Below, piece by piece: positions 9,224 through 44,320 of a stretch of 64,000 nucleotides of DNA. The number at the start of each line of letters is the position of its first letter. The first letter of the stretch is position 1. The notes below the pieces were generated by a model, which worked only from the letters and a program-made list of their open reading frames with translations, searched no databases and was not told the origin of the DNA. A program made the position numbers and the translations under genes. This stretch comes from Panopea generosa (lineage: Eukaryota > Mollusca > Bivalvia > Adapedonta > Hiatellidae), in NCBI GenBank assembly GCA_029582155.1, contig CM055907.1, positions 10,887,874-10,951,873 of the forward strand. Direction: 5' to 3'.

Positions 9224-10640
9224 GGGAATTTGTGTTGCTCCAACAGTTACAGGAGCTTCCAGAAACAAAACCGGATAAAACGAGTTTAAGGGAATTTGTG
9301 TTGCTCCAACAGTTACAGGAGCTTACAGAAACAAAACCGGATAAAACAAGTTTAAGGGAATTTGTGTTGCTCCAACAGTTACAGGAGCTTACAGAAACAA
9401 AACCGGATAAAACGAGTTTAAGGGAATTTGTGTTGCTCCAACAGTTACAGGAGCTTACAGAAACAAAACCGGATAAAACGAGTTTAAGGGAATTTGTGTT
9501 GGTCCAACAGTTACACGAGCTTCAAGAAACAAAACCGGATAAAACCAATTTAAGGGAATTGGTGTTGCTCCAACAGTTACACGAGCTTCCAGAAACAAAA
9601 CTGGATAAAACCAGTTTACGGGAATTTATGTTGCTCCAACAGTTCCAGGAGCTTACAGAAACAAAACCGGATAAAACGAGTTTAAGAGAATTTGTGTTGG
9701 TCCAACAGTTACAGGAGCTACCAGAAACAAAACCGGATAAAACCAGTTTACGGGTATTGTGTTGCTCCAACAGTTACAGGAGCTTCCAGAAACAAAACTG
9801 GATAAAACCAGTTTATGGGAATTTGTGTTGCTCCAGCAGTTGCACAAGCTTCCAGAAACAAAACCGGATAAAACCAGTTTACGGGAATTTGTGTTGCTCC
9901 AACAGTTCCAGGAGCTTCCAGAAACAAAACCGAATACAATGAGTTTAAGAGAATTTGTGTTGGTCCAACAGTTACAGGAGCTACCAGAAACAAAACCGGA
10001 TAAAACCAGTTTACGGGTATTGTGTTGCTCCAACAGTTACAGGAGCTTCCAGAAACAAAACTGGATAAAACCAGTTTATGGGAATTTGTGTTGCTCCAAC
10101 AGTTGCATAAGCTGCCAGAAACAAAACAGGATAAAACAAGTTTAAACGAATTTGTTTTGCTCCAACAGTAACAATAGCTTCCAGAACCAAAACCGGATAA
10201 AAACGTGTTTTAGGGAATTTGTGTTGCTCCAACAGTTACAGAAGCTTTCAGAAACAAAACCTGATAAAACCAGTTTAAGGGAATTTGTGTTGCTCCGACA
10301 GTTACACTAGCTTCCAAAAACAAACCAGATAAAAACGAGTTTAAGGGAATTTGTGTTGCTCCAACAGTTACATGAACTTCTAAAAACAAAACCAGTAAAA
10401 ACAAATTTAATGGGAATTTGCCATGTTCCGACAGTTACACGAGCTTCCAAATACAAAGCTGGTTAAAACGAGTTAAATGGGAATTTGCCATGTTCCAAAA
10501 GTTACACAAGCTTCCAAAAACAAAGCTGGTTAAAACGAGTTTAATGGGAATTTGCCATGTTCCAACAGTTACACAAGCTTCCAAAAACAAAGCCTGCTAA
10601 AAACAGTTTAATGGGAATTTTGCATTGCTCCAACAGGAAT
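9182..10640. repeat. 66-bp minisatellite derived from terminal exon
   Basis: About 22 units of 66 bp, each running TTACAGGAGCTTCCAGAAAC, AAAACCGGATAAAACGAGTT, TAAGGGAATTTGTGTTGCTC, CAACAG. The first unit contains the end of the coding exon and its stop. Since 66 is a multiple of 3, one forward frame is open over several units (LQELPETKPDKTSLREFVLL periodicity) while the gene's own frame stops in each unit. Units after about 10160 are more diverged and of irregular length. Confidence 0.92.
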
Positions 10641-15679: not shown

Positions 15680-16815
15680 TTAAATGTCTGTTCCTTATCT
15701 AATGAAGTGTCATTTCAAAGTGCCTGTTTTGTTGGTCTGCACAAGTTTTTTAACTGCCCTGGTAATTGATAACACGGAGCCTTTTGTTGATGGTTGACTT
15801 CGCTCATCATACGTTAATCCGGCCATAAACTTTTTGACAACCTCCTGTAATGAATTGTGTTTTAAATGCACAAAATATAAATTGAGAGAAACTGACCGAA
15901 AGGATTATGCACATTAAGTTTGGTCAAGATTGAACAATGAGTACCAGAGATGGTGTTATAAAGTTTTGCAATGTTTTAGCAACCGCAATGAATTCATAAC
16001 TCTGTTAAAAACAACTACAGTAGATTTACTACAACATAATTTGACTAATGGGCTGTTCAAACCAAATATCATTCAACATCATACCATACATGTTCATATA
16101 TACAAAAAGGAATTTGGCCAGGACAAAACCAGTGGTTCAAGCTATATATGTTCCAGCCGTTCATGTTTGAACCAACGAAATTCTACTGTATGTGCTCCAC
16201 TTCCACTGAATGCTAATGGAGATCAGTAACTGTTGTCATTTTTAAACATTTTCCTAGAACTGGATATAAACTGTAAGTCGCTGTGAATATTCTGCGACTA
16301 CAAATATATATTTTTTGAAAGAACATATAATGTACATTAAGTTTTGCCAACATTAAATATAAGTAATTTCTGTGGAAATGATGTTTGAAATTCTATGAAA
16401 TTAAATCTATTTTTTAATAATGGTAGCCATATTAAATTATGAGCAGAGACTAAAAACAAAAATTTTGAAAGGAGATTACTAAAGGAACATCAGACAACTT
16501 CATAAGAATTGTATTCTTTCATTCTTATCCTTTATATTTTGAATATTACACTCATTTATCTGTAAATATTGGAAATAAAATATGTTTAAACCAAAGAGAC
16601 ATTGTGACCAAGTTTCATTAATTTAAAAAGATGTGTGTGGTTTCAGAGCAGAAGTAATTCAAAGAAACTTTAGACAGGAGTATCTTTGTCGAGTTTTATG
16701 CAGGTCAGCTATAAATTAGACAAGCAAGCTGTTGCACAGTTAAAGGGAATAATAATTATAGCTGGATTTTCAGAATTTGCTAAAAACATTTGTTTCCAAT
16801 TTAACATGCCTATAC
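15680..16815. other. intergenic, nothing recognised
   Basis: A 99-codon plus-strand open frame (15930-16229) has no recognisable features or splice context. Otherwise AT-rich. Confidence 0.45.
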
Positions 16816-16818
16816 ATA

Positions 16819-17047
16819 TTAACCCTTTACTCCATAGATACGCGTTTTACAGCACCAATCACAAAAGGCCTTTGAAAACAGTGCAGGAAGAGTTCAGATT
16901 GCTCGTAACGAGCAATCTGAACACTTCCTGCACTGTTTTCTACTCTGATAGTTAATATAAACATAATTCACCCATTGCTGATATGTGGTGAATTAATGCT
17001 TTCAATATTAGAGGTGTCAGAAGGCGTCTATATGAAGTAAAGGGTTT
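16819..17047. mobile_element. MITE with TTAA ends and internal palindrome, copy 1
   Basis: Begins TTAACCCTTTACTCCATAGA and ends CTATATGAAGTAAAGGGTTTA. It contains a near-perfect palindrome centred on GCTCGTAACGAGC with arms reading AACAGTGCAGGAAGAGTTCA. TTAA plus CCC termini resemble piggyBac-type elements; that class is inferred. A second copy is at 35374-35611. Confidence 0.7.
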
Positions 17048-17594
17048 ACTGACCCAGTATGCCAAACGGATAGCTATCTTTGGCTACACACCTAGGTTAG
17101 ACTAAATTTAAATGTAAGGTTTAAATGAGTCACACGATTTTATTTTGATTTTAATTTAATCTGTTACACAGGTTAAAATTATTTATCTTGGAGTCTGAAT
17201 GATGATGAAAAGGTAGTCAATCAGTATTTAAACGCTGTCTAATTTTAGAATAGGAATTTCATTTCAAGTTTACCACTTCAATTTAAATATCAGTTTTGTC
17301 AGGTTTTGGTGAATACGTACCAAACCATTGGGATTTTTTTTATTGATGCTTTTTGTCCATTTTAAAAATAATATTTTTTTAGACATTCATAGCTGTTTTT
17401 TTCCTCATACACTCCCTTCAAGGGATTTTTTTTCTCCATAATCGTGATAAACTACTACTCACCACAATAGGCCACATATAGTTCTGTTTTGTATGTGGAG
17501 TAAGTAGCTCAGCACACTGACCAAATGGTCTGAAAAGACAACAAATATACAGATTGCCTGATAGGACACAAGATCAAAATTAAAAGAGATTCTT

Positions 17595-17845
17595 TGTTAC
17601 ATCCAATCAGATTGCCATCTAGGGCTAATAGACAATCAATTAACCTACCATCTTTTTCCTGGGATCCTGGAAGCTTAAACAGTACGCCAACACACCCATC
17701 TCCACAAGAAACCAATAACTTTCCAGTTTGAATAAGAGGTGAAAGATAAATGATGAGACACAATGTTGTATATCAATCATCAAAGAGACTGGTCAGGCAG
17801 GGATTCGAACCCGCAACTCTAGGATTTATATCCAATCAGAGGATG
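17595..17845 (-). mobile_element. family A SINE, 5' head incomplete
   Basis: The body matches 61-330 (AACCTACCATCTTTTTCCTG... and GGGATTCGAACCCGCAACTC). The B box is present, but the A-box end is lost after about 17840. Confidence 0.65.
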
Positions 17846-17885
17846 ACCAAGACTTCACTTAACCAGTATGAAAATATATATATAT

Positions 17886-18107
17886 ATATATGGAGATACT
17901 TATTTGTGAATAACCAAGACATACAGTAAATGTACAGACCAGACTACAGCGAGTGCGCCTAGCTACAATGCAAACCATAGATACAATATCAAGGCCTCTG
18001 CCAAACCAATAAATTTGGTGTCGACCATGACTTATATACTATGGAATAACATGCAACACATCTGGACAGGGTGGACAAATTTACATACATGAAGTGATAG
18101 CTTTATA
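17886..18107. repeat. direct duplication, copy 1
   Basis: The block starting TATGGAGATACTTATTTGTG and ending GAAGTGATAGCTTTATAT recurs at 18306-18522 with about 95% identity by eye. A (TA)n tract precedes it. Confidence 0.8.
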
Positions 18108-18305
18108 TGAGTAGGATCCAGTTAAGGATTCATGACTACTCACATGCTATATAAAGGACAGATTTATAAACCCGTTGGATCATATAGATACAGTGAATTC
18201 ATATATATTTAGTTTCATAAAGGAAGATAATTAAATTCACAACAACGGAATTTACGATTTTTGGGATCTTTTCAGATGCTCATTCACAATGCATGATGTA
18301 TATAT

Positions 18306-18538
18306 ATATGGAGATACTTATTTGTGAATAACTAAGACATAAATGTACAGACCAGACTACAGCGAGTGCGCCTAGCTACAATGCAAACCATAGATACAAT
18401 ATCAAGGCCTCTGCCAAACCAATAAATTTGGTGTCGACCATGACTTATATACTATTGAATTACATGCAACACATCTGGACAGGGTGGACAAATTTACATA
18501 CATGAAGTGATAGCTTTATATATATATATATATATATA
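18306..18538. repeat. direct duplication, copy 2, plus (TA)n
   Basis: Second copy of the block at 17886-18107, offset by about 420 bases and ended by a (TA)n run at about 18517-18538. It has lost four bases around ACATAAATGT. Confidence 0.8.
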
Positions 18539-18639
18539 TCTTTTGTTATATAATTCACTGACATAAGTATTTCTATACATTTCTTACAATGCCTATTCCT
18601 AAATAACTACATTTTCTTCAAATAAAATTATCTTAGGGT

Positions 18640-18835
18640 ACTCTGTGACTGAGTGATCTAAGGTACTGTCATCCAATGATCATGCACCTCTTACAAATAA
18701 AGTTGTAGGTTCAAGCCCTGCTCAGCCCTATGTAAGATAGTTTTCCAATTATTTGCAGAAGGATGGTGGTTCTACTTGAATTCATACTAAGGTCCTCCAC
18801 CAAATAAACTGGATATGCCATAGATTAGCTATTGT
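18640..18835 (+). mobile_element. tRNA-derived SINE, family B
   Basis: GAGTGATCTAAGGTACTGTC (A box) and GTTGTAGGTTCAAGCCCTG (B box), then a body ending CTCCACCAAATAAACTGGAT. Matching copies are at 31450-31670 and 54945-55185. Confidence 0.7.
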
Positions 18836-18915
18836 GTTGAAAATGCCTTTGAACCCCATTAACATTTTTCCTTAATGGTTCTGCTGTAAAGGTGTGTCTT
18901 TTATATACGCATTTA

Positions 18916-19091
18916 CAGTAAAACCTGTCTTAAGCAGCCAGTCAAGGGAAGAAGTAAATGTGGTCTTTTAAGACAGGTTGTTGCTTAATACAGGTGAATT
19001 TGCTCTGAAAGCATAGAATGGGAACAGCAAATGTGGTTGCATTAAACAGGTGGCTACTTAATTGAGGTGACTGCTTACACAGGTTTGGCTG
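18916..19091. mobile_element. pogo/Tigger-like MITE
   Basis: Starts CAGTAAAACCTGTCTTAAGC and ends CACAGGTTTGGCTG, with TA at both sides. The inverted termini and TA target fit the pogo/Tigger branch of Tc1-mariner elements. The interior is non-coding; copies are at 15519 and 34979. Confidence 0.72.
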
Positions 19092-19191
19092 TATCTATAT
19101 ATATATAACATGTATATATAGAGAGAACTCAAGAACATCGTGACATAAATATACAGACAGGACACACCTATATTTGGAACTTACTCAACAA

Positions 19192-22100
19192 GACAACAAC
19201 AAGACTACGGTACAAACGAAGTTTACATGAATATCCATCCCATCATTACTGATGACCTATATTTGTACTTACTCTACAAGAAAAAACAATCAGACTACTG
19301 TACAAACCAAGTATACACAAGTATCCATCCCATCACTACTGATGACCTATATTTGTACTTACTCGACAAGACACAACAAGACTACTGTAGAAACCAAGCT
19401 GTACAAACCAAGTATACATCAGTATCCATCCCATCACTACTAATGACCTATATTTGTACTTACTCGATAAGACACAACAAGACTACGGTACAAACCAAGT
19501 ATACACGAGTATCCATCCCATCACTACTGATGACCTATACTTGTACTTACTCAACAAGACACAACCAGACTAAGGTACAAATCAAGTATACACGAGTATC
19601 CATCACATCACTACTGATGACCTATATTTGTACTTACTCGACAAGACACAACAAGACTACTGTAGAAATCAAGCTGTACAAACCAAGTATACATCAGTAT
19701 CCATCCCATCACTACTAATGACCTATATTTGTACTTACTCGATAAGACACAACAAGACTACGGTACAAACCAAGTATACACGAGTATCCATCCCATCACT
19801 ACTGATGACCTATATTTGTACTTACTCAACAAGACACAACCAGACTAAGGTACAAATCAAGTATACACAAGTATCCACCACATCACTACTGATGACCTAT
19901 ATTTGTACTTACTCTACAAGACACAATCAGACTACGGTACAAACCAAGTATACACGAGTATCCATCACATCACTACTGATGACCTATATTTGTACTTACT
20001 CTACAAGACACAACAATACTACGGTACAAACCAAGTATATACGAGTATCCATCCCATCACTACTGATGACATATATTTGTACTTACTCAACATGACTACG
20101 GTACAAACCAAGTATACATGAGTATCCATCCCATCACTACTGATGACCTATATTTGTACTTACTCTACAAAACACAACAAGACTACTGTACAAACCAAGT
20201 ATACATGAGTATCCATCCCATCACTACTGATGACCTACATTTGTACTTACTCTACAAGACACAACAACACTACAGTACAAACCAAGTATACATGAGTATC
20301 CATCCCATCACTACTGGATCTATATTTGTACTTACTCTACAAGACACAACAAGACTACAGTACAAACCAAGTATACATGAGTATCCATCCCATCACTACT
20401 GACGACCTACATTTGTACTTACTCTACAAAACACAACAAGACTACGGTACAAACCAAGTATACACGAGTATCCATCCCATCACTACTGATGACCTATATT
20501 TGTACTTAATCTACAAGACACAACAAGACTACAGTACAAACCAAGTATACATGAGTATCCATCCCATCACTACTAATGACCTATATTTGTACTTACTCTA
20601 CAAGACACAACAAGACTACAGTACAAACAAAGTATACACGAGTATCCATCCCATAACTACTGATGACCTATATTTGTACTTACTCTACAAGACACAACAA
20701 GACTACAGTACGAACCAAGTATACACGAGTATCCATCCCATCACTACTGATGACCTATATTTGTACTTAGTCTACAAGACACAACAAGACTACAGTACAA
20801 ACCAAGTATACATGAGTATCCATCTCATCACTACTAATGACCTATATTTGTACTTACTCTACAAGACACAACAAGACTATGGTACAAACCAAGTATACAC
20901 GAGTATCCATCCCATCACTACTGATGACCTATATTTGTACTTACTCAACAAGACTACGTTACAAACCAAGTATACATGAGTATCCATCCCATCACTACTG
21001 ATGACCTATAGTTGTACTTACTCTACAAGACACAACAAGACTACGGTACAAACCAAGTATACAAGAGTATCCATCCCATCACTACTGATGACCTATATTT
21101 GTACTTACTCTACAAGACACAACCAGACTACGGTACAAACCAAGTATACATGAGTATCCATCCCATCACTACTGATGACCTATATTTGTACTTACTCTAC
21201 AAGACACAATCAGACTACGGTACAAACCAAATATAAATGAGTATCCATCACATCACTACTGATGACCTATATTTGTACTTACTCTACAAGACACAACAAG
21301 ACTACTGTACAAACCAAGTATACACAAGTATCCACCACATCACTACTGATGACCTATACTTGTACTTACTCTACAAGACACAACAAGACTACTGTACAAA
21401 CCAAGTATACACGAGTATCCATCCCATCACTACTGATGACCTGTATTTGTACTTACTCTACAAGACACAACAAGACAACTGTACAAACCAAGTATACACG
21501 AGTATCTATCCCATCACTACTGATGACCTATATATGTATTTACTCTACAAGACACAACAAGACTACGGTACAAACCAAGTATACATGAGTATCCATCCCA
21601 TCACTACTAATAACCTATATTTGTACTTAAACAACAAGACTACGGTGCAAATCAAGTATACACGAGTATCCATCCCATCACTACTGATGACATATATTTG
21701 TACTTACTCTATATGACACAACCAGACTACAGTACAAACCAAGTATACATCAGTATCCATACCATCACTACTGATGACCTATATTTGTACTTACTCTACA
21801 AGACACAACAAGACTACTGTACAAACCAAGTATACACGAGTATCCATCCCATCACTACTGATGACCTATACTTGTACTTACTCTACAAGACACAACAAGA
21901 CTACTGTACAAACCAAGTATACACGAGTATCCATCCCATCACTACTGATGACCTGTATTTGTACTTACTCTACAAGACACAACAAGACTACTGTACAAAC
22001 CAAGTATACACGAGTATCCATCCCATCACTACTGATGACCTATATATGTACTTACTCTACAAGACACAACAAGACTACGGTACAAACCAAGTATACATGA

Positions 22101-25100
22101 GTATCCATCCCATCACTACTAATAACCTATATTTGTACTTAAACAACAAGACTACGGTGCAAATCAAGTATACACGAGTATCCATCACATCACTTGTGAT
22201 GACATATATTTGTACTTACTCGAAAAGACACAACCAGACTACGGTACAAACCAAGTATACATGAGTATCCATCCCATCGCTACTGGTGACTTATATTTGT
22301 ACTAACTCTACAAGACACAACAAGACTACGGTACAAACCAAGTATACATGAGCATCCATCCCATCACTACTAATGACCTATATTTGTACTTACACAACAA
22401 GACTAAGGTGCAAACCAAGTATACATGAGTATCCATCCTATCACTACTGATGACCTATATTTGTACTTACTCGACAAGACACAACAAGACTACTGTACAA
22501 TCCAAGTATACATGAGTATCCATCCCATCACTACTGATGACCTATATTTGTACTTACACAACAAGACTACGGTACAAACCAAGTGTACACGAGTATTCAT
22601 CCCATCACTACTGATGACCTATATTTGTAATTACTCAACAAGACTACGGTACAAACCAAGAATACATGAGTATCCATCCCATCACTACTGATGACCTATA
22701 TTTGTACTTACTCAATAAGATTACGGTACAAACCAAGTATACATGAGTATCTATCCCATCACTACTGATGACCTATATTTGTACTTACTCTACAAGACAC
22801 AACCAGACTACGGTACAAACCAAGTATACATGAGTATCCATTCCATCACTACTGATGACCTATATTTGTACTTACTCTACAAGACACAACAAGACCAGGG
22901 TACAAACCAAGTATACATGAGTATCCATCACATCACTACTGATGACCTATATTTGTACTTACTCTACAAGACACAACAAGACTATGGTACAAACCAAGTA
23001 TACATGAGTATCCATCCCATCACTACTGATGACCTATATTTGTACTTATTCTACAAGACACAACAAGACTACAGTACAAACCAAGTATACATCAGTATCC
23101 ATCCCATCACTACTGATGACCTTTATTTGTACTTACTCTACAAGACACAACAAGACTACTGTACAAACCAAGTATACACGAGTATCCATCCCATCACTAA
23201 TGATGACCTGTATTTGTACTTACTCTACAAGACACAACAAGACTACTGTACAAACCAAGTATACATGAGTATCCATCCCATCACTACTGATGACCTGTAT
23301 TTGTACTTACTCTACAAGACACAACAAGACTACTGTACAAACCACGTATACATGAGTTTCAATCCCATCACTACTGATGACCCATACTTGTACTTACTCT
23401 ACAAGACACAACAAGACTACGTTACAAACCAAGTATACACGAGTATCCATCCAATCACTACTGATGACCTATATTTGTACTTACTCTACAAGACACAACA
23501 AGACTACCGTACAAACCAAGTATACATGAGTATCCATCCCATCACTACTGATGACCTATATCTGTACTTACTCAACAAGACACAACGAGACTACGGTACA
23601 AACCATGTATATACACGAGTATCCATCCCATCACTACTGATGACCTATATCTGTACTAACTCAACAAGACACAACAAGACTACTGTACAAACCAAGTATA
23701 CACGAGTATCCATCACATCACTACTGATGACCTATATTTGTACTTACTCTACAAGACACAACCACACTACTGTACAAACCAAGTATACACGAGTATCCAT
23801 CACATCACTACTGATGACCTATATTTGTACTTATTCTACAAGACACAACCAGACTACTGTACAAACCAAGTATACACGAGTATCTATCCCATCACTACTG
23901 ATGACCTATATTTGTACTTACTCTACAAGACACAACCAGACTACTGTACAAACCAAGTATACACAAGTATCCATCACATCACTACTGATGACCTATATTT
24001 GTACTTACTCTACAAGACACAACAAAACTACTGTACAAACCAAGTATACACGAGTATCCATCACATCACTACTGATGACCTATATTTGTACTTACTCTAC
24101 AAGACACAACCAGACTACTGTACAAACCAAGTATACATGAGTATCTATCCCATCACTACTGATGACCTATATTTGTACTTACTCTACAAGACACAACAAG
24201 ACTACTGTACAAACCAAGTATACACTAGTATCCATCACATCACTACTGATGACCTATATTTGTACTTACTCTACAAGACACAACCAGACTACTGTACAAA
24301 CCAAGTATACATGAGTATCTATACCATCACTACTGATGACCTATATTTGTACTTACTCTACAAGACACAACAAGACTACTGTACAAACCAAGTATACACG
24401 AGTATCCATCACATCACTACTGATGACCTATATTTGTACTTACTCTTCAAGACACAACCAGACTACTGTACAAACCAAGTATACATAAGTATCTATTTCA
24501 TCACTACTGATGACCTATATTTGTACTTACTCTACAAGACACAACCAGGCTACAGTACAAACCAAGTATACACAAGTTTCCATCACATCACTAATGATGA
24601 CCTATATTTGTACTTACTCTACAAGACACAACCAGGCTACAGTACAAACCAAGTATACATGAGTATCCATCACATCACTAATGATGACCTATATTTGTAC
24701 TTACTCTACAAGACACAACCAGGCTACAGTTCAAACCAAGTATACATGAGTATCCATCCCATCACTACTGATGACCTATATTTGTACTTACTCTACAAGA
24801 CACAACAAGACTACTGTACAAACCAAGTATACACGAGTATCCATCCCATCACTACTGATGACCTATATTTGTACTTACTCTGCAAGACACAATCAGACTA
24901 CTGTACAAACCAAGTATACACGAGTATCTATCCCATCACTACTGATGACCTATATTTGTACTTACTCTACAAGACAAAACAAGACTACTGTACAAACCAA
25001 GTATACATGAGTATCCATCACATCACTACTGATGACCTATATTTGTACTTACTCTACAAGACACAACAAGACTACTGTACAAACCAAGTATACACGAGTA

Positions 25101-28100
25101 TCCATCCCATCACTACTGATGACCTATATTTGTACTTACTCTACAAGACACAACCAGACTAAGGTACAAACCAAGTATACACGAGTATCCATCCCATCAC
25201 TACTGATGACCTATATTTGTACTTACTCTACAAGACACAACCAGACTACAGTACAAACCAAGTATACATGAGTATCCATCCCATCACTACTGATGACCTA
25301 TATTTGTACTTACTCTACAAGACACAACCAGGCTACAGTACAAACCAAGTATACACAAGTATCCATCCCATCACTACTGATGACCTATATTTGTACTTAC
25401 TCGACAAGACACAACCAGGCTACAGTACAAACCAAGTATACATGAGTATCCATCCCATCACTACTGATGACCTATATTTTTACTCACTAAACAAGACACA
25501 ACAAGACCACGGTACAAACCAAGTATACACGAGTATCCATCCCATCACTACTGATGACCTATATTTGTACTCACTCAACAATACACAACAAGACTACGGT
25601 ACAAACCAAGTATACACGAGTATTCATCCCATCACTACTGATGACCTATATTTGTACTTACTCAACAAGACACAACCAGGCTACGGTACAAACCAAGTAT
25701 ACACGAGTATCCATCCCATCACTACTGATATCCTATATTTGTACTTACTCTACAAGACACAACCAGGCTACAGTACAAAGTATACACGAGTATCCATCCC
25801 ATTACTACTGATGACCTATATTTGTACTTACTCAACAAGACACAACCAGACTACAGTACAAACCAAGTATACACTAGTATCCATCCCATCACTACTGATG
25901 ACCTATATTTGTACTTACTCGACAAAACACAACCAGGCTACAGTACAAACCAAGTATACATGAGTATCCATCCCATCACTACTGATGACCTACATCTGTA
26001 CTTACTCTACAAGACACAACAAGACTACTGTACAAACCAAGTATACACGAGTATCCATCACATCACTACTGATGACCTATATTTGTACTTACTCTTCAAG
26101 ACACAACCAGACTGCTGTACAAACCAAGTATACATAAGTATTTATCTCATCACTACTGATGACCTATATTTGTACTTACTCTACAAGACACAACCAGGCT
26201 ACAGTACAAACCAAGTATACACGAGTTTCCATCACATCACTAATGATGATCTCTATTTGTACTTACTCTACAAGACACAACCAGGCTACAGTAGAAACCA
26301 AGTATACACGAGTATCCATCACATCACTAATGATGACCTATATTTGTACTTACTCTACAAGACACAACCAGGCTACAGTACAAACCAAGTATACACGAGT
26401 ATCCATCCCATCACTACTGATGACCTATATTTGTTCTTAATCTACAAGACACAACCAGACTACTGTACAAACCAAGTATACACGAGTTTCCATCACATCA
26501 CTACTGATGACCTATATTTGTACTTACTCTACAAGACACAACCAGACTACTGTACAAACCAAGTATACATGAGTATTCATCCCATCACTACTGATGACCT
26601 ATATTTGTACTTACTCTACAAGACACAACCAGACTACAGTACAAACCAAGTATACATGAGTATCCATCCCACTACTGATGACCTATATTTGTACTTACTC
26701 TACAAGACACAACAAGACTACTGTACAAACCAAGTATACATGAGTATCCATCCCATCACTACTGATGACCTATATTTGTACTTACTCTACAAGACACAAT
26801 TAGACTACTGTACAAACCAAGTATACACGAGTATCTATCCCATCACTACTGATGACCTATATTTGTACTTACTCTACAAGACACAACAAGACTACTGTAC
26901 AAACCAAGTATACACGAGTATCCATCACATCACTACTGATGACCTATATTTGTACTTACTCTACAAGACACAACAAGACTACTGTACAAACCAAGTATAC
27001 ATGAGTATCCATCACATCACTACTGATGACCTATATTTGTACTTACTCTAAAAGACACAACCAGACTAAGGTACAAACCAAGTATACACGAGTATCCATC
27101 CCATCACTACTGATTACCTGTATTTGTACTTACTCTACAAGACACAACCAGACTACAGTACAAATCAAGTATACATGAGTATCCATCCCATCACTACTGA
27201 TGACCTATATTTGTACTTACTCTACAAGACACAACCAGGCTACAGTACAAACCAAGTATACACAAGTATCCATCCCATCACTTCTGATGACCTATATTTG
27301 TACTTACTCGACAAGACACAACCAGGCTACAGTACAAACCAAGTATACATGAGTATCCATCCCATCACTACTGATGACCTATATTTGTACTCACTCAACA
27401 AGACACAACAAGACTACGGTAAAAACCAAGTATACACCAGTATCCATCCCATCACTACTGATGACCTATATTTGTACTCACTCAACAATACACAACAAGA
27501 CTACGGTACAAACCAAGTATACACGAGTATTCATCCCATCACTACTGATGACCTATATTTGTACTTACTCAACAAGACACAACCAGGCTATGGTACAAAC
27601 CAAGTATACACGAGTATCCATCCCATCACTACTGATATCCTATATTTGTACTTACTCTACAAGACACAACCAGGCTACAGTACAAACCAAGTATACACGA
27701 GTATCCATCCCATTCCTACTGATGACCTATATTTGTACTTAATCAACAAGACACAACCAGACTACAGTACAAACCAAGTATACACTAGTATCCATCTCAT
27801 CACTACTGATGACCTATATTTGTACTTACTCGACAAAACACAACAAGACTACAGTACAAACCAAGTATACATGAGTATCCATCCCATCACTACTAATGAC
27901 CTATATTTGTACTTACTCGACAAGACACAACCAGGCTACAGTACAAACCAAGTATACACAAGTATCCATCCCATCACTACTGATGACCTATATTTGTACT
28001 TACTCTACAAGACACAACCAGACTACAGTACAAACCAAGTATACATGAGTATCCATCCCATCACTACTGATGACCTATATTTGTATTTACTCTACAAGAC

Positions 28101-30884
28101 ACAACCAGGCTACAGTACAAACCAAGTATACACAAGTATCCATCCCATCACTACTGATGACCTATATTTGTACTTACTCGACAAGACACAAACAGGCTAC
28201 AGTACAAACCAAGTATACATGAGTATCCATCCCATCACTACTGATGACCTATATTTGTACTCACTCAACAAGACACAACAAGACTACAGTACAAACCAAG
28301 TATACACGAGTATCCATCCCATCACTACTGATGACCTATATTTGTACTCACTCAACAATACACAACAAGACTACGGTACAAACCAAGTATACACGAGTAT
28401 TCATCCCATCACTACTGATGACCTATATTTGTACTTACTCAACAAGACACAACCAGGCTACGGTACAAACCAAGTATACACGATTATCCATCCCATCACT
28501 ACTGATATCCTATATTTGTACTTACTCTACAAGACACAACCAGGCTACAGTACAAACCAAGTATACACGAGTATCCATCCCATTACTACTGATGACCTAT
28601 ATTTGTACTTACTCAACAAGACACAACCAGACTACAGTACAAACCAAGTATACACTAGTATCTTTCCCATCACTACTGATGACCTATATTTGTACTTACT
28701 CGACAAGACACAACCAGGCTACAGTACAAACCAAGTATACATGAGTATCCATCCCATCACTACTGATGACCTATATCTGTACTTACTCTACAAGACACAA
28801 CAAGACTACTGTACAAACCAAGTATACACGAGTATCCATCACATCACTACTGATGACCTATATTTGTACTTACTCTTCAAGACACAACCAGGCTACAGTA
28901 CAAACCAAGTATACACGAGTTTCCATCACATCACTAATGATGATCTATATTTGTACTTACTCTACAAGACACAACCAGGCTACAGTACAAACCAAGTATA
29001 CATGAGTATCCATCACATCACTAATGATGACCTATATTTGTACTTACTCTACAAGACACAACCAGGCTACAGTACAAACCAAGTATACACGAGTATCCAT
29101 CCCATCACTACTGATGACCTATATTTGTACTTAATCTACAAGACACAACCAGACTACTGTACAAACCAAGTATACACGAGTTTCCATCACATCACTACTG
29201 ATGACCTATATTTGTACTTACTCTACAAGACACAACCAGACTACTGTACAAACCAAGTATAGTTGAGTATCCATCACATCACTACTGATGACCTATATTT
29301 GTACTTACTCTACAAGACACAACCAGACTACAGTACAAACCAAGTATACATGAGTATCCATCCCATCACTACTGATGACCTATATTTGTACTAACTCTAC
29401 AAGACACAACAAGACTACTGTACAAACCAAGTATACATGAGTATCCATCCCATCACTACTGATGACCTATATTTGTACTTACTCTACAAGACACAATCAG
29501 ACTACTGTACAAACCAAGTAAACACGAGTATCTATCCCATCACTACTGATGACCTATATTTGTACTTACTCTACAAGACACAACAAGACTACTGTACAAA
29601 CCAAGTATACACGAGTATCCATCACATCACTACTGATGACCTATATTTGTACTTACTCTACAAGACACAACAAGACTACTGTACAAACCAAGTATACACG
29701 AGTATCCATCACAGCACTACTGATGACCTATATTTGTACTTACTCTACAAGACACAACCAGACTAAGGTACAAACCAAGTATACACGAGTATCCATCCCA
29801 TCACTACTGATGACCTATATTTGTACTCACTCAACAAGACACAACAAGACTACGGTAAAAACCAAGTATACACGAGTATCCATCCCATCACTACTGATGA
29901 CCTATATTTGTACTCACTCAACAATACACAACAAGACTACGGTAAAAACCAAGTATACACGAGTATTCATCCCATCACTACTGATGACCTATATTTGTAC
30001 TTACTCAACAAGACACAACCAGGCTACGGTACAAACCAAGTATACACGAGTATCCATCCCATCACTACTGATATCCTATATTTGTACTTACTCTACAAGA
30101 CACAACCAGGCTACAGTACAAACCAAGTATACACGAGTATCCATCCCATTACTACTGATGACCTATATTTGTACTTACTCAACAAGACACAACCAGACTA
30201 CAGTACAAACCAAGTATACACTAGTATCCATCCCATCACTACTGATGACCTATATTTGTACTTACTCGACAAGACACAACCAGGCTACAATACAAACCAA
30301 GTATACATGAGTATCCATCCCATCACTACTGATGACCTATATCTGTACTTACTCAACAAGACACAACAAGACTACAGTACAAACCAAGTATACATGAGTA
30401 TCCATCCCATCACTATTAATGACCTATATTTGTACTTACTCGACAAGACACAACCAGGTTACAGTACAAACCAAGTATACACAAGTATCCATCCCATCAC
30501 TACTGATGACCTATATTTGTACTTACTCGACAAGACACAACCAGGCTACAGTACAAACCAAGTATACATGAGTATCCATCCCATCACTACTGATGACCTA
30601 TATTTGTACTTACTCAACAAGACACAACAAGACTACGGTACAAACCAAGTATACACGAGTATCCATCCCATCACTACTGATGACCTATATTTGTACTTAC
30701 TCAACAAGACACAACAAGACTACGGTACAAACCAAGTATACACGATTATTCATCCCATCACTACTGATGACCTATATTTATACTTACTCAACAAGACACA
30801 ACAAGACTACGGTACAAACCACGTATACATGAGTATCCATCCCATCACTACTGATGACCTATATTTGTACTTACTCGACAAGAG
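19192..30884. repeat. 87-bp satellite array, about 134 units
   Basis: The unit on the plus strand is ACCTATATTTGTACTTACTC, TACAAGACACAACAAGACTA, CGGTACAAACCAAGTATACA, CGAGTATCCATCCCATCACT, ACTGATG. As 87 is a multiple of 3, two plus frames stay open for long stretches, which is not evidence of coding; host-gene transcription would run on the minus strand. On that strand each unit has CTTGT(A/C/T)GAGTAAGTAC, the same donor that ends the USP9X-like exon at 30875, and the last unit overlaps that exon's end by about 10 bases. Occasional units have lost the donor or carry small deletions. A larger order is visible from about 25.4 kb. Confidence 0.95.
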
Positions 30885-30990
30885 CTGCGATGACTGTAAC
30901 AGACAGAGGTGGGCCAGTAATGAATCTGTCTAACAAAATTTGAAACCCATCCAGTGATCCAAATCTGTTGATCAAGTCTACCAACCAACC
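30875..30990 (-). CDS. USP9X: USP9X-like exon at edge of satellite
   Basis: Acceptor TATATTTACAG, phase 0. It encodes [38 protein letters not shown], and ends GA|GTAAGTAC in phase 2. It aligns over its whole length to USP9[20 protein letters not shown]. The donor lies inside the last 87-bp satellite unit. No following exon was found on the minus strand before the window's start. Confidence 0.8.
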
Positions 30991-31206
30991 CTGTAAATAT
31001 AAAAGTATGCCGTTTAGAAAATTGATCAAAGAAAAACTTTACCCATAATTTACAGGTTTCATTTGGCAAGGAGTTACCTTACATAGATCACCTACAAAAG
31101 GATGGCTCTGCCTTTTATAATGTCAATAGAGCAATTCATTAATTTATTTGTAATCTCTGATTTTATAACTAATGTGTTTTGTTTGATCAAGTTTTAGTTT
31201 CTCCAT
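30991..31206. other. intron start, nothing recognised
   Basis: Short AT-rich stretch between the USP9X-like exon and the first MITE. Confidence 0.4.
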
Positions 31207-31450
31207 CTGGACCCAGTTGTTCAAAACTCTGTTAGCATGACTATCTGTTCGACAATTTTGTAACTTCAATAGTTTCTATACTTAATGGTTTTATGGCAAT
31301 TTAAGTGCATTTTCAGAAACAAAATGGCATATTTTCATAATTTTCAACCAAATTCTAGCCTAAAATGCTATAAATCTCAATATATCCTGATTTTAAAAAA
31401 TAACACTTTTCCCAGGGTTAAGCTAACCATGCTTTGAACAACTGGGTCCA
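31207..31450. mobile_element. MITE with CTGGACCCAG termini
   Basis: Left CTGGACCCAGTTGTTCAAAA and right TTTGAACAACTGGGTCCAG form about 30-base inverted repeats (also GTTAGC against GCTAAC) around an AT-rich core. Non-coding. Confidence 0.75.
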
Positions 31451-31670
31451 GAGAGTGGTCCAAGCCGCAGAAGTCTTATGACCACTTACCACTGAAGTTG
31501 TGGATTCCAGCCCAACTGGGTCCAAAAACTGAAAGAGTTTGCCAGTTACTTGCTGAAGGACTGTGATTCAACGCGGATTCATATTGAGGTCTTTTCCACC
31601 AATAAAACTGGATATACCATTACCTGTTGTGTGTTCCGAATTGAAAGTGCTAGAACATACATATGAAGTA
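31450..31670 (+). mobile_element. family B SINE
   Basis: AGTGGTCCAAGCCGCAGAAG near the start and GTGGATTCCAGCCC as a degenerate B box. The tail CTTTTCCACCAATAAAACTG matches 18640 and 54945 copies. It directly abuts the preceding MITE. Confidence 0.7.
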
Positions 31671-31854
31671 ATCGACAGCCAGAAACAGGATGATAAAAAT
31701 CAGCCCACTTTCAGTCTTCCACTACAGAGCAACTGAACAAACTTAACCGTAAATCAGACTGCTTTGGAAAAATATTTTGATACACCGTTCAAGTCACATG
31801 ATTAAAACAAGAAATTGTTTGTCAACAGCAGTTAACATTTTTTAAACTGACCAC

Positions 31855-34610
31855 AGATGGTTCTTGATAGATAATAGTTAACATTTTTAAACTGAACACA
31901 GATAATTCTTGTTAGTTAACATTTTTAAACTGAACAAAGATGGTTCTTGATAGATAATAGTTAACCTTTTTAAACTGTATACAGATGGTTCTTGATAGAT
32001 AATAGTTAACATTTTTTAACTGAATACAGATGGTTCTTGATAGATAATAGTTAACATTTTTAAACTGAACACAGATAGTTCTTGATAGTTAACATTTTTA
32101 AACTGAACAAAGATGGTTCTTGATAGATAATAGTTAACATTTTCAAACTGAACACAGATGGTTCTTGATAGATAATAGTTAACATTTTTAAACTGAACAC
32201 AGATAGTTCTTGATAGTTAACATTTTTAAACTGAACAAAGATGGTTCTTGATAGATAATAGTTAACGTTTTCAAACTGAACACAGATGGTTCTTGATAGA
32301 TAATAGTTAACATTTTTAAACTGAACACAGATAGTTCTTGATAGTTAACATTTTTAAACTGACCACAGATGGTTCTTGATAGATAATAGTTAACATTTTT
32401 AAACTGAACACAGATAGTTCTTGATAGTTAACATTTTTAAACTGACCACAGATGGTTCTTGATAGATAATAGTTAACATTTTTAAACTGAACACAGATAG
32501 TTCTTGATAGTTAACATTTTTAAACTGAACAAAGATGGTTCTTGATAGATAATAGTTAACCTTTTTAAACTGTATACAGATGGTTCTTGATAGATAATAG
32601 TTAACATTTTTTAACTGAATACAGATGGTTCTTGATAGATAATAGTTAACATTTTTAAACTGAACACAGATAATTCTTGATAGTTAACATTTTTAAACTG
32701 AACAAAGATGGTTCTTGATAGATAATAGTTAACCTTTTTAAACTGTATACAGATGGTTCTTGATAGATAATAGTTAACATTTTTAAACTGAATACAGATG
32801 GTTCTTGATAGATAATAGTTAACATTTTTAAACTGTATACAGATGGTTCTTGATAGATAATAGTTAACATTTTTAAACTGAACACAGATAATTCTTGATA
32901 GTTAACATTTTTAAACTGAACAAAGATGGTTCTTGATAGATAATAGTTAACCTTTTTAAACTGTATACAGATGGTTCTTGATAGATAATAGTTTACATTT
33001 TTAAACTGAATACAGATGGTTCTTGATAGATAATAGTTAACATTTTTAAACTGAACACAGATAGTTCTTGATAGTTAACATTTTTAAACTGAACAAAGAT
33101 GGTTCTTGATAGATAATAGTTAACATTTTCAAACTGAACACAGATGGTTCTTGATAGATAATAGTTAACATTTTTAAACTGAACACAGATAGTTCTTGAT
33201 AGTTAACATTTTTAAACTGAACAAAGATGGTTATTGATAGATAATAGTTAACATTTTCAAACTGAACACAGATGGTTCTTGATAGATAATAGTTAACATT
33301 TTTAAACTGAACACAGATAGTTCTTGATAGTTAACATTTTTAAATTGAACAAAGATGGTTCTTGATAGATAATATTTAACATTTTCAAACTGAACACAGA
33401 TGGTTCGTGATAGATAATAGTTAACATTTTTAAACTGAACACAGATAGTTCTTGATAGTTAATATTTTTAAACTGAACAAAGATGGTTCTTGATAGATAA
33501 TAGTTAACATTTTTAAACTGAACACAGATAGTTCTTGATAGTTAACATTTTTAAACTGAACAAAGATGGTTCTTGATAGATAATAGTTAACATTTTCTAA
33601 CTGAACACAGATGTTCTTGATAGATAATAGTTAACATTTTTAAACTGAACACAGATAGTTCTTGATAGTTAACATTTTTAAACTGAACAAAGATGGTTCT
33701 TGATAGATAATAGTTAACATTTTTAAACTGAATACAGATAGTTCTTGATAGATAAAAGTTAACATTTTTAAACTGAACACAGATGGTTCTTGATAGATAA
33801 TAGTTAACATTTTCAAACTGAACACAGATGGTTCTTGATAGATAATAGTTAACATTTTTAAACTGTATACAGATGGTTCTTGATAGATAATAGTTAACAT
33901 TTTTAAACTGAATACAGATGGTTCTTGATAGATAATAGTTAACATTTTTAAACTGAATACAGATGATTCTTGATAATTAACATTTTCAAACTGAACAAAG
34001 ATGGTTCTTGATAGATAAAGTTAACATTTTTAAACTGAACACAGATGGTTCTTGATAGATAAAGTTAACATTTTTAAACTGAACACAGATGGTTCTTGAT
34101 AGATAATAGTTAACATTTTTAAACTGAATACAGATGGTTCTTGATTGATAATAGTTAACATTTTTAAACTGAATACAGATGGTTCTTGATAGTTAACATT
34201 TTCAAACTGAACAAAGATGGTTCTTGATAGATAATAGTTAACCTTTTTAAACTGAACACAGATGGTTCTTGATAGATAAAATTAACATTTTTAAACTGAA
34301 CACAGATGGTTCTTGATAGATAAAGTTAACATTTTTAAACTGAACACAGATGGTTCTTGATAGATAATAGTTAACATTTTTAAACTGAATACAGATGGTT
34401 CTTGATAGTTAACATTTTCAAACTGAACAAAGATGGTTCTTGATAGATAATAGTTAACCTTTTTAAACTGAACACAGATGGTTCTTGATAGATAAAGTTA
34501 ACATTTTTAAACTGAACACAGATGGTTCTTGATAGATAAAGTTAACGTTTTTAAATTCAACACGGATGGTTCTTGATAGATAATAGTTAACATTTTTAAA
34601 CTAAACACAA
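31855..34610. repeat. 45/38-bp satellite in USP9X-like intron
   Basis: Roughly 65 units. The long form is GTTCTTGATAGATAATAGTT, AACATTTTTAAACTGAACAC, AGATG (45 bp). A short form lacks GATAATA (38 bp). Long and short units alternate in runs, e.g. 32060-32530 and 33050-33560, giving a composite period. Minus-strand open frames of 76-101 codons follow from the 45-bp period. Confidence 0.93.
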
Positions 34611-34618
34611 ATCTTTCT

Positions 34619-34687
34619 TAAGGCCATAATAAATTAATTGCTAGATTATCATCCCCGATAATCTAGCAATTAGTTTATTATGGCCTA
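34619..34687. mobile_element. palindromic mini-MITE inside satellite
   Basis: TTAGGCCATAATAAATTAAT...GATTATCATCCCC is followed at once by its near-perfect complement CCGATAATCTAGCAATTAG...ATTATGGCCTAA. This is a hairpin with about 33-base arms and almost no loop, with the same termini as the MITE at 2309-2496. It interrupts the satellite, which resumes at 34688. Confidence 0.75.
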
Positions 34688-34835
34688 ATAGATAATAGTT
34701 TAACATTTTTAAACTGAACACAGATTGTTCTTGATAGATAATACATGTAATTAACATTTTTAAACTGAACACAGATGGGTCTTGATAGATAATAGTTTAA
34801 ACAGAACACAGATGGTATTTGATAGATTATCTTAG
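34688..34835. repeat. degenerate end of 45-bp satellite
   Basis: Three diverged units after the palindrome (e.g. AGATTGTTCTTGATAGATAA), then loss of the pattern. Confidence 0.7.
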
Positions 34836-34849
34836 TTTACACAATAAAC

Positions 34850-34935
34850 ATTTTGAGGGGTGAATGCGGAAAAGGTATAAGTGCATATAAATAAATAAGC
34901 ACTTAGACCTTTTTTGCTTTCACCCCCTCGATTTG
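34850..34935. mobile_element. short hairpin element
   Basis: GAGGGGTGAATGCGGAAAAG and CTTTTTTGCTTTCACCCCCTC are inverted, with GTGCATAT against ATAAGCAC inside. Total about 80 bases, apparently a terminal-repeat-only MITE. Confidence 0.55.
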
Positions 34936-34978
34936 CAGTTACTGAACCCAGTTCCATGATTCATAACATTTCCTAAAA

Positions 34979-35172
34979 CAGTCAAACCTGTGCAAGTGGT
35001 CACCTCTATTGAGCAGCCATTTGTCTCAAGTAGCCACATTTGCTATTTCCAATGTTTATGCTTTCAGAGCAAATTAACATACTTTCAGAGCAAATTAACC
35101 TTAAGCAACAACCTGCCTTAAAAGGCCACTTTTGCTGCTCCCTTGATTGGCTGCTCAAGACGGGTTTGACTG
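34979..35172. mobile_element. pogo/Tigger-like MITE, reverse copy
   Basis: Starts CAGTCAAACCTGTGCAAGTG and ends AAGACGGGTTTGACTG with TA after it. The body is the complement of the copy at 18916-19091. Confidence 0.75.
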
Positions 35173-35373
35173 TATTATATTGAACTTTATAAAAAACAGA
35201 TTAATAAGGTATATTCAAACCTACATAAGGGGTTTCACATTTCAGTGACTTTGCACTGAGGCCTTCATCGTATTGAACTGTCTTTGATTGACGCTCTTTA
35301 TTGCATGCATGGAAACTGAAAAATAACTTCATAGTGTAAGTTTAATCATCTTTATAACATTTAAACTAATCAT

Positions 35374-35611
35374 TTAACCCTTTACTTCATATAGACACCT
35401 TTTCCTGCACCAATCACAGAAGGCCTTTGAAAACAGTGCAGGAGGAGTTCAGGTTGCTCGTAACGAGCAATCTGAACACTTCCTGCACTGTTTTCCACTC
35501 TGTCGGTTAATATAAACATAATTCACCCAATAATTCAAAGCCTTCTATATTAGGTGTCCAAAGGCGTCTATATTAGGTGTCCAAAGGTGTCAATGTGAAG
35601 TAAGGGGTAAT
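35374..35611. mobile_element. MITE with TTAA ends and internal palindrome, copy 2
   Basis: TTAACCCTTTACTTCATATA at the left and GTGAAGTAAGGGGTAA at the right. The internal palindrome GCTCGTAACGAGC is identical to that in 16819-17047. One inner segment (GGTGTCCAAAGGCGTCTATA) is duplicated. Confidence 0.72.
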
Positions 35612-36905: not shown

Positions 36906-37119
36906 TTATAGAAATTTAATAACATGTGACTCACTTGCAACGAGGATTAAACACCAAGGCCAGCAACTTCAGTAACGGTAAGCAATCTTGTGACAATTTG
37001 GTAACACAAAGCTCTACCAACTTCTCTGCATTCATTAATATACCTTTCTGGAGATAAGATAAATATTCTGAATAAAACTGGTCATATAAAGATGGTCACA
37101 AATAAGAAGATTTATTATG

Positions 37120-38139: not shown

Positions 38140-38252
38140 CTGGACGTCGTCTGTCCAGACTTGAACTGCCTTATTTTTCATGATCTTTGTGAATGCAGAT
38201 GTCAGACCCTCATTGAAAAAATGCTGACATGCCTCACTTCTAATATCTTGGC
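38140..38252 (-). CDS. USP9X: USP9X-like second coding exon
   Basis: Acceptor TTAATTTCAG, donor GTGAGG. Joined in phase 1 it reads GQDIRSEACQHFFNEGLTSA, FTKIMKNKAVQVWTDDVQ, clearly alignable to the USP9X segment DVKSEACQRFFRDGL. It ends in phase 0 and is open. Confidence 0.78.
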
Positions 38253-38611: not shown

Positions 38612-39045
38612 GTTTTCAACACATGTGAGATATGTGTGGCATATCCAGCTGTGTTAGTCTAAGAATGGTGTTCAATGCCATTTTCAACACATGTGAGATA
38701 AGTGTGGCATATCCAGCTGTGTTAGTCTAAGAATGGCGTTCAATGCCATTTTCAACACATGTGAGATATGTGTGGCATATCCAGCTGTGTTAGTCTAAGA
38801 ATGGTGTTCAATGCCATTTTCAACACATGTGAGATATGTGTGGCATATCCAGCTGTGTTAGTCTAAGAATGGTGTTCAATGCCATTTTCAACACATGTGA
38901 GATATGTGTGGCATATCCAGCTGTGTTAGTCTAAGAATGGCATTCAATGCCATTTTCAACACATGTGAGATATGTGTGGCATATCCAGCTGTGTTAATCT
39001 AAGAATGGTGTTCAATGCCATTTTCAACACATGACAGGTTATATA
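38612..39045. repeat. 68-bp tandem repeat, about six copies
   Basis: CACATGTGAGATATGTGTGG, CATATCCAGCTGTGTTAGTC, TAAGAATGGTGTTCAATGCC, ATTTTCAA. Successive copies start at 38620, 38688 and so on, and are nearly identical. It is intronic. A single diverged relative occurs near 640-680. Confidence 0.92.
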
Positions 39046-39772
39046 TGGCATATCCAGTTTGATTAGTGGAAAGAATGTCAGAAGAACCACCATAGCTCCT
39101 TTATTTGAACAAACTTGAAACCCCTACACATAGGAATCATTTATATCAAAACAGAACAAATTTGGCTGGTTGGTTAGTTCTTGAGAAGATCTGTAAACAG
39201 ACAAGGCCTGGGTCAATTATCATTTATGACCCTAGTGTTATGGCTTGAATAAACCTTTGACAAAAAGGTTTAGGTTATACAACATGGTACATGCAAAATA
39301 TCAAAGCACCAGGCCTTATATTTTTAAAAAATATAACTGATCAGCCACTAGAACTTGGCCAAATTTGACCCCAGGGTCATGAAGTTCCATGTAATTATGC
39401 TTCACGTAAATTTTAATGTAAAATCTGTCAAGCTAAAGTTAATGACAGAAGGATGACCTGAAACATGTGATTACAAATGCTCTTAGGCTCAGTAGAGCTA
39501 AATATACACATTTCAAATGAAGTTCTTTATTGATTACTCTTTTTAGTAAGGGTTTATCAGAATGGTTTTAACAATATTACACCTCTGTCCTGTAAGATAA
39601 CTGTTAAATACTTACATGAAAACCAACAGACTGAATTTAAAATGTGAAATAAGAGAGAAAAACTTCTGTTCAGTCTATTTCCATTAAAAACACAATTTCC
39701 TTCTAAGGTGTTTAAAACCAACATTAAATTAAGATTAAATGTAGCCTTGAGTGAAAAACTTCAAACACCTAC

Positions 39773-40133
39773 CTGCCTTGCATAGCTTGATAAAAGCATC
39801 TAGAAGAATTTGTAACTCACAGTTAGGCAAGATTAGGACATACCCTCTCTGGACGTTCAACATCTTATCTAACCTGCCCCAACTCTTGAACTGGGAAATC
39901 TGGCTCACCACCTTCTAGCAGCTCTGCAATGTCATCTGCTTGTCCATGCTCCTTGGCATGTGTCACTGTTCCCTTGGCAGCAGCTTGCTGTGGAGTAGGT
40001 AAAGCAGATGACATTGCAGAGCCTGCTTGTGTGGGACCAGCAACTGCAGGCATCGGGACAGGGGAAGAGAGTTGAGGGTTCTCTTTTGGGGAGTCGCAAC
40101 CTGCTGGACTTCCTCCCATTGCAGTTGTCATGC
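39773..40133 (-). CDS. USP9X: USP9X-like first coding exon (frameshifted)
   Basis: Acceptor TATTATTTTCAG, then two untranslated bases and ATG at 40131, so an upstream non-coding exon is implied, as in vertebrates. It encodes MTTAMGGSPAGCDSP..., a Pro/Ala/Gln-rich disordered start, then DDIAELLEGGEPDFPVQELG. With one base fewer in the G run at 39877-39880 it continues RLDKMLNVQRGYVLILPNCE up to the donor GTAGGTG in phase 1. As given, translation stops at 39865. Confidence 0.7.
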
Positions 40134-42629: not shown

Positions 42630-43832
42630 TTATAATTCACCTGATTCATTTGTATATATCACACTGACAACACCTATTTTTGTTGATGGATCAACAAATG
42701 TTTTTATGTTGTTTTCTATTTTCAGACTTATCTCCACTGACTCTAGTTTAGATGAAGTTTCTCCAGACGACTGTTCGTAACCTATTAGCTGTTCTTCTAG
42801 TTTGTGCATGACAATGAATAGCTGAGATGCTGAGCCATGTTCAAGTACTGCCTTGTGTGTACATAAAGAACTTTCCAATGCAGCTTGTAATTTTTGGCAG
42901 AGTGCTCTTCCTTCGTCTACTTTAGTGGATGCTTGTTTCTTAATTGCAAAAGTTTCTGCCAAAACTTTTTGTTCAAAATCATCAATGGCTTTATTCACAT
43001 CAACACGTATGCCTTTTACCTGGCCAGTTATATAATCTATTTGACTGTCTGTTTCTTTTTCATTCAATTCAAATTTCTTTAAGGTGGTTCCCAAATGGTC
43101 TCTTAGTTCTATTAATTTAGTTTTCACCGACTCTGTTCTGTTATTTTCTTTGACATCTGCAATTTCATTAATTTCTACAACATTCTGGCAGCCTCTGTGT
43201 TTTGTAATGGCACAAGCACTACAACATAGTTTCATCTCATCTTTACAGATGTATTTAATTCGTTTGCAATGAGTCTCACATTGCTCAAACCTTGCCATTA
43301 TAACAGACGCATTGGTCTGACTCAAGGATTCGGTTATATTTTCAAGTTGACACATATTATGACCTTTCATGTATGTATAAATATCATGCACTTTTGTACA
43401 TTTATTACACTGATATTCACCACAAGTACCGCAATATAAAGTTGCTTTTTCAGATTTATTTCTCTTCTGACATGGTCCACACATAATTATTTGAGGTTCG
43501 ACTTCTTGTTTAGTCACCGAAACTGCTTCCATTACTGCTACTATTGCATAGTTAGCTGGTAGAGTTTCAGTCCAGTTTTCTGGTGGCATCTGACCTTGAC
43601 CTACAGTTGTCAATTTCCTACATAACGGACATTGAATTCCAGTCTTTAAATTTAGTGTGCCGTTGTCCTTCATTTTCATCACGAATGCATGAATACACGA
43701 TTTACAAAACGTATGCAAACATACGAGGGATTTCGGTTCGTTATATACTTCCAGGCATATGGGGCAGGTTAGTCCCATCTGATCTCCTGTTTCTGCTCTC
43801 GTATCAACGTCTCCAAGTAATTTAGAAGCCAT
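42630..43832 (-). CDS. TRIM-type RING/B-box/coiled-coil protein
   Basis: An uninterrupted 400-codon frame starts at ATG 43832. The RING finger spans residues 23-71: CPIC at 23-26, CLH...CKSC at 38-46, CPLC at 68-71. Two B-box regions follow: 118-158 (CGPC, CGTC, CNKC, H149) and 185-215 (CETH, C204, C207, KHRGC). A coiled coil of about 140 residues begins near 225 (NNRTESVKTKLIELRDHLGT). No NHL, filamin or SPRY domain follows; the chain ends VVSVIYTNESGEL. RING proteins of this layout are E3 ubiquitin ligases; all expected zinc ligands are visible, so activity is plausible. Single-exon TRIM genes are typically multicopy in bivalves (general knowledge). The start was chosen because it gives 22 residues before the RING, usual for the family. 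Confidence 0.9.
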   Translation of the reverse strand: MASKLLGDVDTRAETGDQMGLTCPICLEVYNEPKSLVCLHTFCKSCIHAFVMKMKDNGTLNLKTGIQCPLCRKLTTVGQGQMPPENWTETLPANYAIVAVMEAVSVTKQEVEPQIIMCGPCQKRNKSEKATLYCGTCGEYQCNKCTKVHDIYTYMKGHNMCQLENITESLSQTNASVIMARFEQCETHCKRIKYICKDEMKLCCSACAITKHRGCQNVVEINEIADVKENNRTESVKTKLIELRDHLGTTLKKFELNEKETDSQIDYITGQVKGIRVDVNKAIDDFEQKVLAETFAIKKQASTKVDEGRALCQKLQAALESSLCTHKAVLEHGSASQLFIVMHKLEEQLIGYEQSSGETSSKLESVEISLKIENNIKTFVDPSTKIGVVSVIYTNESGEL

Positions 43833-44320
43833 CCCAAGTTCTTTAATTTATTGGTTACTTAGGAATCTCCCGGAAATAATTTCGATGCCGTATAATTTAC
43901 ACATACGTAATAATAACACATTTGCAATGGTAACGTTCGACTCTACGATGCATGTCAATTTAATTATATATTCCTACCAAATTTCGTGCGTTAATATACA
44001 ATTGTAATATGCCTGTGATGGAAATTTATTAATTAAAACAATCTGTAAATCGTTTGTAGTAAATTATATATAGGATATTAGAGGTCATTCGTATATACAT
44101 GTGAACCAAGAGCCAACAAATTGAAACTTCGATGAGGATAACAAAGCCAACTAGAGCTTAATAGTTCCCCTACACTCAAGAAGAGGCAGTGGAGTTGTAG
44201 CCGTCAGGCATCATATATTAGTCATTAGTATAAAGGACTTCTATATTTAGTTCTTGTTTGTATATAGATTAAGTTTTATCATGCGATATAATTGTTGTCA
44301 TTTGAATACAGTTTGTAGTC
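43833..44320. other. upstream region of TRIM-type gene
   Basis: Mildly CpG-richer just upstream of the start (e.g. CCCGGAAATAATTTCGATGC). No TATA box or other site that I would defend. Confidence 0.35.

Follow-up and report, generated by a model that had tools for sequence, protein, structure and literature searches.

An 87-bp tandem array in exact register with the 5′ splice site of a USP9X-like exon

When tandem copies of a splice donor occupy most of an intron, and the donor of the preceding exon lies in step with them, two questions arise: whether the array grew out of that exon-intron junction, and whether its many donors do anything for the gene. Both are raised by the window analysed here, by which we mean the whole stretch of 64,000 bases. 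The junction belongs to a USP9X-like gene copy with the following parts (a slash marks an exon edge).

39773..40133, minus strand: exon AB, in which the first part, with the ATG, is in a different frame from the second, which fits the phase of exon C (frame analysis)
38140..38252, minus strand: exon C (human USP9X match, together with exon D)
36935..37047, minus strand: exon D (human USP9X match, together with exon C)
35225..35315, minus strand: exon E, weakly similar (aligned jointly with exon F)
30875..30990, minus strand: exon F, open, ending in phase 2 at GTCGA/GTAAGT (human USP9X match, splice signals)
17530..30874, minus strand: intron F-G, 13,345 bp, of which the array fills 11.7 kb (exon boundaries)
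17463..17529, minus strand: exon G (PFGQCAELLTPHTKQNYMWPIV), acceptor TTTTCAG, donor GTGAGT (human USP9X match)
15710..15844, minus strand: exon H, open until an in-frame TGA at a point where human USP9X goes on (human USP9X match)

The USP9X-like exon of the original prediction is real and lies at 30990-30875, as its splice signals (acceptor TTTACAG, donor GTAAGTAC), its phase and its match to human USP9X agree in showing. The translation of exons F-G-H matches human USP9X (FAF-X, 7yxx) with an E value of 6.5e-25, that of exons E-F with 5.7e-13 and that of exons C-D with 1.4e-21, while a joined exon query, which includes a few non-exon residues, reaches 1.6e-57. Exon F is in phase with exon G, the codon GA/A giving E-P-F-G. 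Splice signals are canonical at all seven exons, and the phases are consistent downstream of the first part of exon AB; the seventh exon, H, terminates in a stop and not in a donor. Its TGA is met after 44 codons; at that point more than 2,000 of the 2,579 residues of the human chain are still to come, and the gene copy may end early at this exon, barring a splice site inside exon H or exons beyond it.

The upstream end of the gene is less clear. The second part of exon AB, searched alone, aligns at the expected place (7yxx residues 92-124) with an E value of 0.31, and the first part alone has no match in the PDB. A frameshift in the host copy is likely without being secure; taken from the frame difference inside exon AB it is a possible reading with a weak basis, and, alternatively, translation may not cover the first part, or a GGGG run there may be an assembly error. 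The simplest reading, short of proof, is that the host copy is a truncated and perhaps decaying duplicate, for which added donors would cost little.

Intron F-G stands out by its length, the other five introns measuring 1,092 to 4,234 bp. Two introns of the gene contain further arrays detected by Tandem Repeats Finder (TRF), at 31830-34609 (45 bp, 64.6 copies) and at 38613-39057 (68 bp, 6.5 copies), neither of which adjoins an exon edge. Elsewhere in the window, TRF finds a 66-bp array at 9177-10636, where a plus-strand open frame of 274 aa occupies 9118-9942, and a large 21-bp array with strong GC skew at 44861-49324 (214.6 copies). Pfam recognises a RING finger and a weak B-box in a TRIM-like open frame of 405 aa at 42630-43847 (minus strand), and a FYVE zinc finger in an open frame at 1885-2121 (plus strand; E 1.1e-07). 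A palindromic element that resembles a MITE was seen by eye twice on the minus strand, at about 16860-16990 and at 35400-35520.

The array itself, with its overlap into the exon and one stretch of unusual units, is laid out as follows.

19167..30874, minus strand: 87-bp tandem array of 136 donor-starting units, the last of them partial (TRF, wrap-around alignment, motif counts)
30875..30883, minus strand: last 9 exon bases, TCTTGTCGA, common to the unit (exact suffix match)
20087..22788, minus strand: stretch with eight short units of 77-78 bp, with 9-10 gapped positions (wrap-around alignment)

TRF reports 132.8 copies between 19401 and 30883, and wrap-around alignment on the minus strand counts the 136 units from 30874 down to 19167, so that an earlier estimate of about 134 units of 87 bp holds well. 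An array was also rightly noted from position 19192, but it reaches slightly further, to 19167; with the shared exon bases the whole runs from 30883 to 19167, or 11.7 kb. The unit counts given below rest on the 135 complete units. Windows of 800 bp within the array are 97-98% identical to the sequence at offsets of 870, 1,907 and 2,777 bp, and the uniformity of the units is explained by these near-identical blocks, the mark of recent amplification and homogenisation. Most of the eight short units have one 10-bp internal repeat fewer than the others, and the eight may represent an older form of the unit. Matches to known elements were not found: one exact 28-base core of the unit gave 0 matches in the viral collection and 0 in the prokaryote collection, Rfam at gathering score gave 0 matches across 17000-35500, and a tRNA search found none. 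Three units, folded as RNA, show no unusual structure (z 0.85).

From the real donor, at 30874, it is exactly 87 bp to the start of the next unit (30787), and 87 bp again to the one after it (30700). Therefore, the real donor is the first member of the array, and the placement of the exon's donor inside the terminal 87-bp unit, as originally proposed, is exact in register. The shared sequence does continue into the exon, as had also been proposed, although for 9 bases and not for about 10: the final 9 exon bases match the unit exactly. Outside the array, only 1 of 6,716 GT sites is preceded by a match of 9 or more bases, and the longest such match at any of 81 GTAAG sites does not exceed 5; at positions of any kind a 9-base match occurs 15 times in 104,162. 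A looser, gapped test against 26 unit variants is less severe, since equally high scores are reached by 62 of 1,500 sampled GT sites and, among shuffled exons, by 30 of 1,500 (2-4% overall). It is thus unlikely that the overlap between exon and unit is due to chance, short as it is and weaker under the liberal gapped test. A longer overlap with the exon by way of the 77-bp units (CGTAG-TCTTGTTGA against CGCAGCTCTTGTCGA) was spotted by eye. It is not claimed, because the best anchored score is the ungapped 9, the score that those GT sites and shuffled exons equal.

The overlapping bases also help to tell the direction of copying. They encode A-L-V-E beside P-F-G-Q-C, where human USP9X has A-L-I-K-P-F-G-Q-C; exon G completes the split codon, so that the overlap reads L-V-E before the P-F-G-Q-C shared with the human protein. 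Since these residues align with the human chain, the exon bases are probably old, and it was probably the array that copied them.

Given the exact donor register and the 9-base overlap, growth of the array from the exon-intron junction, the central claim of the original prediction, is likely as judged by sequence comparison within this locus. We think it probable, with some room for doubt, that the array is a neutral intronic minisatellite, born by tandem duplication across the 5′ splice site of what is probably a decaying gene duplicate. The founding duplication would have taken in at least 9 bases from the end of exon F, together with roughly 78 bases from the start of the intron of the USP9X-like copy, and unequal exchange together with block duplication would then have carried the array to about 135 units. 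Most units would bear a donor because the founding segment had one and the units were homogenised, and not because of selection on donors. The cell would most likely splice at the real exon edge, or would mis-splice cheaply if the copy is decaying. Growth of arrays is in any case common in this window, where tandem arrays (intervals picked by hand from TRF output) cover 25,273 of the 64,000 bases.

The best-surviving alternative, which we consider improbable but worth keeping in mind, is that a pre-existing satellite was inserted, or spread, into the intron at the 5′ splice site by way of a few short matching bases, and that it now supplies the donor. Satellites can move, the window is rich in arrays, and the gapped overlap test is just modestly significant, all of which would suit an insertion. 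However, the rest of the 64-kb window contains no convincing copy of the unit (the best match is of 18 bases, E 0.36), and insertion would require that both the 9-base exact match and the exact donor register be coincidences.

Does the array, however it arose, keep its donors because they are used? If so, the donor should be better preserved than the rest of the unit, and the original prediction had in fact stated that almost every unit keeps CTTGT(A/C/T)GAGTAAGTAC. The motif is frequent, with 94 exact occurrences (and 109 of GAGTAAGTAC), but "almost every" overstates it. GTAAGT is perfect in 112 of the 135 units; the sense strand of the array contains it 113 times and the opposite strand not once. 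Of the 135 units, 126 have an intact GT, which places it 53rd among the 87 dinucleotides of the unit; in the other 9 the +1 G is changed or missing. Among the 87 six-base windows, GTAAGT ranks 46th by intactness and 37th by mean mismatch. The mean mismatch is 0.024 at GTAAGTAC, against a median of 0.022 and a mean of 0.058 for positions outside GAGTAAGTAC, that mean exceeding the median because of a few hypervariable positions. For the octamer, the 8-base donor window, the rank out of 87 is 22 by mean mismatch and 32 by intactness (36 when the test is repeated without the 10 units that have 9 or more mismatches, leaving 125), and for the 10-base donor window it is 16-25 of 87. Both windows do somewhat better than the median because they avoid the hypervariable positions. 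In the 125-unit set, random sets of eight positions are as conserved as the octamer in 36% of cases, and in 78% when the eight most variable positions are left out; the variant types per position number 1.25 in the octamer and 1.30 in the rest. The octamer is therefore, in the main, as variable as the remainder of the unit, the very outcome that the original prediction had named as counting against it, and conservation specific to the donor is not borne out.

These figures weigh on the proposal that the array works as a set of decoy donors, with U1 snRNP bound to many units tuning splicing or shielding the long intron from early polyadenylation. In its favour, GTAAGT is confined to the sense strand, and 117 of the 135 array donors equal or exceed the real donor in calculated U1 pairing energy, so that an effect on splicing is physically plausible, at least as a modelled possibility. 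Predicted accessibility separates the sites little, 9 of the 136 donors being more open than the real one, a weak difference. Against it, donor positions vary as others do, with the +1 G lost at the frequency given above, and there is little in the intron to shield. The array has 1 AATAAA and 0 ATTAAA in 11,707 bases, and the last 1,636 bases of intron F-G have no polyadenylation signal, compared with 217 AATAAA or ATTAAA in 104,202 bases (both strands) outside the array; there is thus almost nothing for U1 to protect. When the frame of exon F is read past the real donor, a TAA follows directly after the junction, and therefore any use of a decoy gives a truncated product, in a host copy that seems to stop early in any event. 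We accordingly regard a functional decoy array as quite unlikely, and the suggested binding of U1, shifting of the splice site and blocking of polyadenylation find no support. Recursive splicing was considered as well. The consensus of a recursive splice site, or ratchet point, has AG directly before GTAAG; AGGTAAG occurs 0 times in the array, where TTGTAGAGTAAG occurs 70 times, and a recursive splice site is ruled out.

A slightly poorer candidate reverses the direction of copying, the end of the exon having been overwritten by conversion from the array. In favour of this, GA, the pair that closes the exon, agrees with the unit and yields E at a residue that is K in the human chain; yet the preceding bases give A-A-L-V, which corresponds to A-A-L-I in human, and we hold such a conversion to be improbable indeed. 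Less probable again is a working splicing rheostat, in which U1, bound to about 120 good sense donors, would keep the transcript in splice forms that contain a stop and are unproductive. If this very doubtful reading were true, the number of repeats would control how much full transcript is formed. The weakest proposal, that the array is a coding repeat of the plus strand, can virtually be set aside: 87 bp is a multiple of three and there are open frames of 500 and 730 aa, but the synonymous, nonsynonymous and stop variants are near expectation in both open plus frames (32/65/7 observed against 28.7/70.5/4.8 expected in one, and 28/69/7 against 25.1/72.9/6.0 in the other), no clear coding selection appears in any of the six frames by variant-type counts in 122 ungapped units, and the one Pfam match is weak and under the cut-off (18 against 25 bits).

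A neutral minisatellite born at the splice junction would still be of some value to the study of splicing. The locus is a very large natural competition series, in which one real 5′ splice site is followed, every 87 bp, by well over 100 equally good donors. Provided that the gene is transcribed, it would reveal on what basis the spliceosome picks one of many equal donors, and whether the choice is limited by exon length. It would also show how a functioning splice junction can give rise to an array of satellite size, perhaps after duplication has released a gene to decay.

How new is such an array? The repeat unit of the human gene IFI6 is short. In this gene, also known as 6-16 or G1P3, a minisatellite gives multiple splice donors (Turri, Cuin and Porter 1995, NAR 23:1854, as described in PMC4526556; the title is also given in PMC2572611). 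Going by the portions of these sources available to us, the likeness is close: the IFI6 minisatellite adjoins an exon and its units hold a donor, as here, where the real donor is in register and most units keep an intact GT. The differences are that downstream units are reported to be used as donors in IFI6, whereas the donors here are candidates, and that here an in-frame stop follows the real donor and there are about 135 units of 87 bp. A second relative is a group of tandem repeats found where exon meets intron in human segmental-duplication paralogs, which have on average four 30-bp units, or 160 bp (PMC2812944). From what is available of that report, this too is minisatellite expansion over an exon-intron boundary in duplicated gene copies; there, however, it covers 160 bp and comes with transcript evidence, and here it extends over 11.7 kb and is read from DNA. 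In light of both cases (PMC4526556, PMC2812944), the statement that no satellite of this kind had been described was too strong. The kind is already known; it is the size that is unusual, and unmatched in the open-licence literature searched. Finally, tandem duplication of genomic segments can alter introns (Rogers 1989; Hellsten 2011; both as described in PMC4974935). As far as the accessible part of that source goes, such duplications likewise carry splice signals, and the case in potato spans an intron-exon boundary; the outcome there is a new intron, whereas here an existing 5′ junction would have been multiplied within its own intron.
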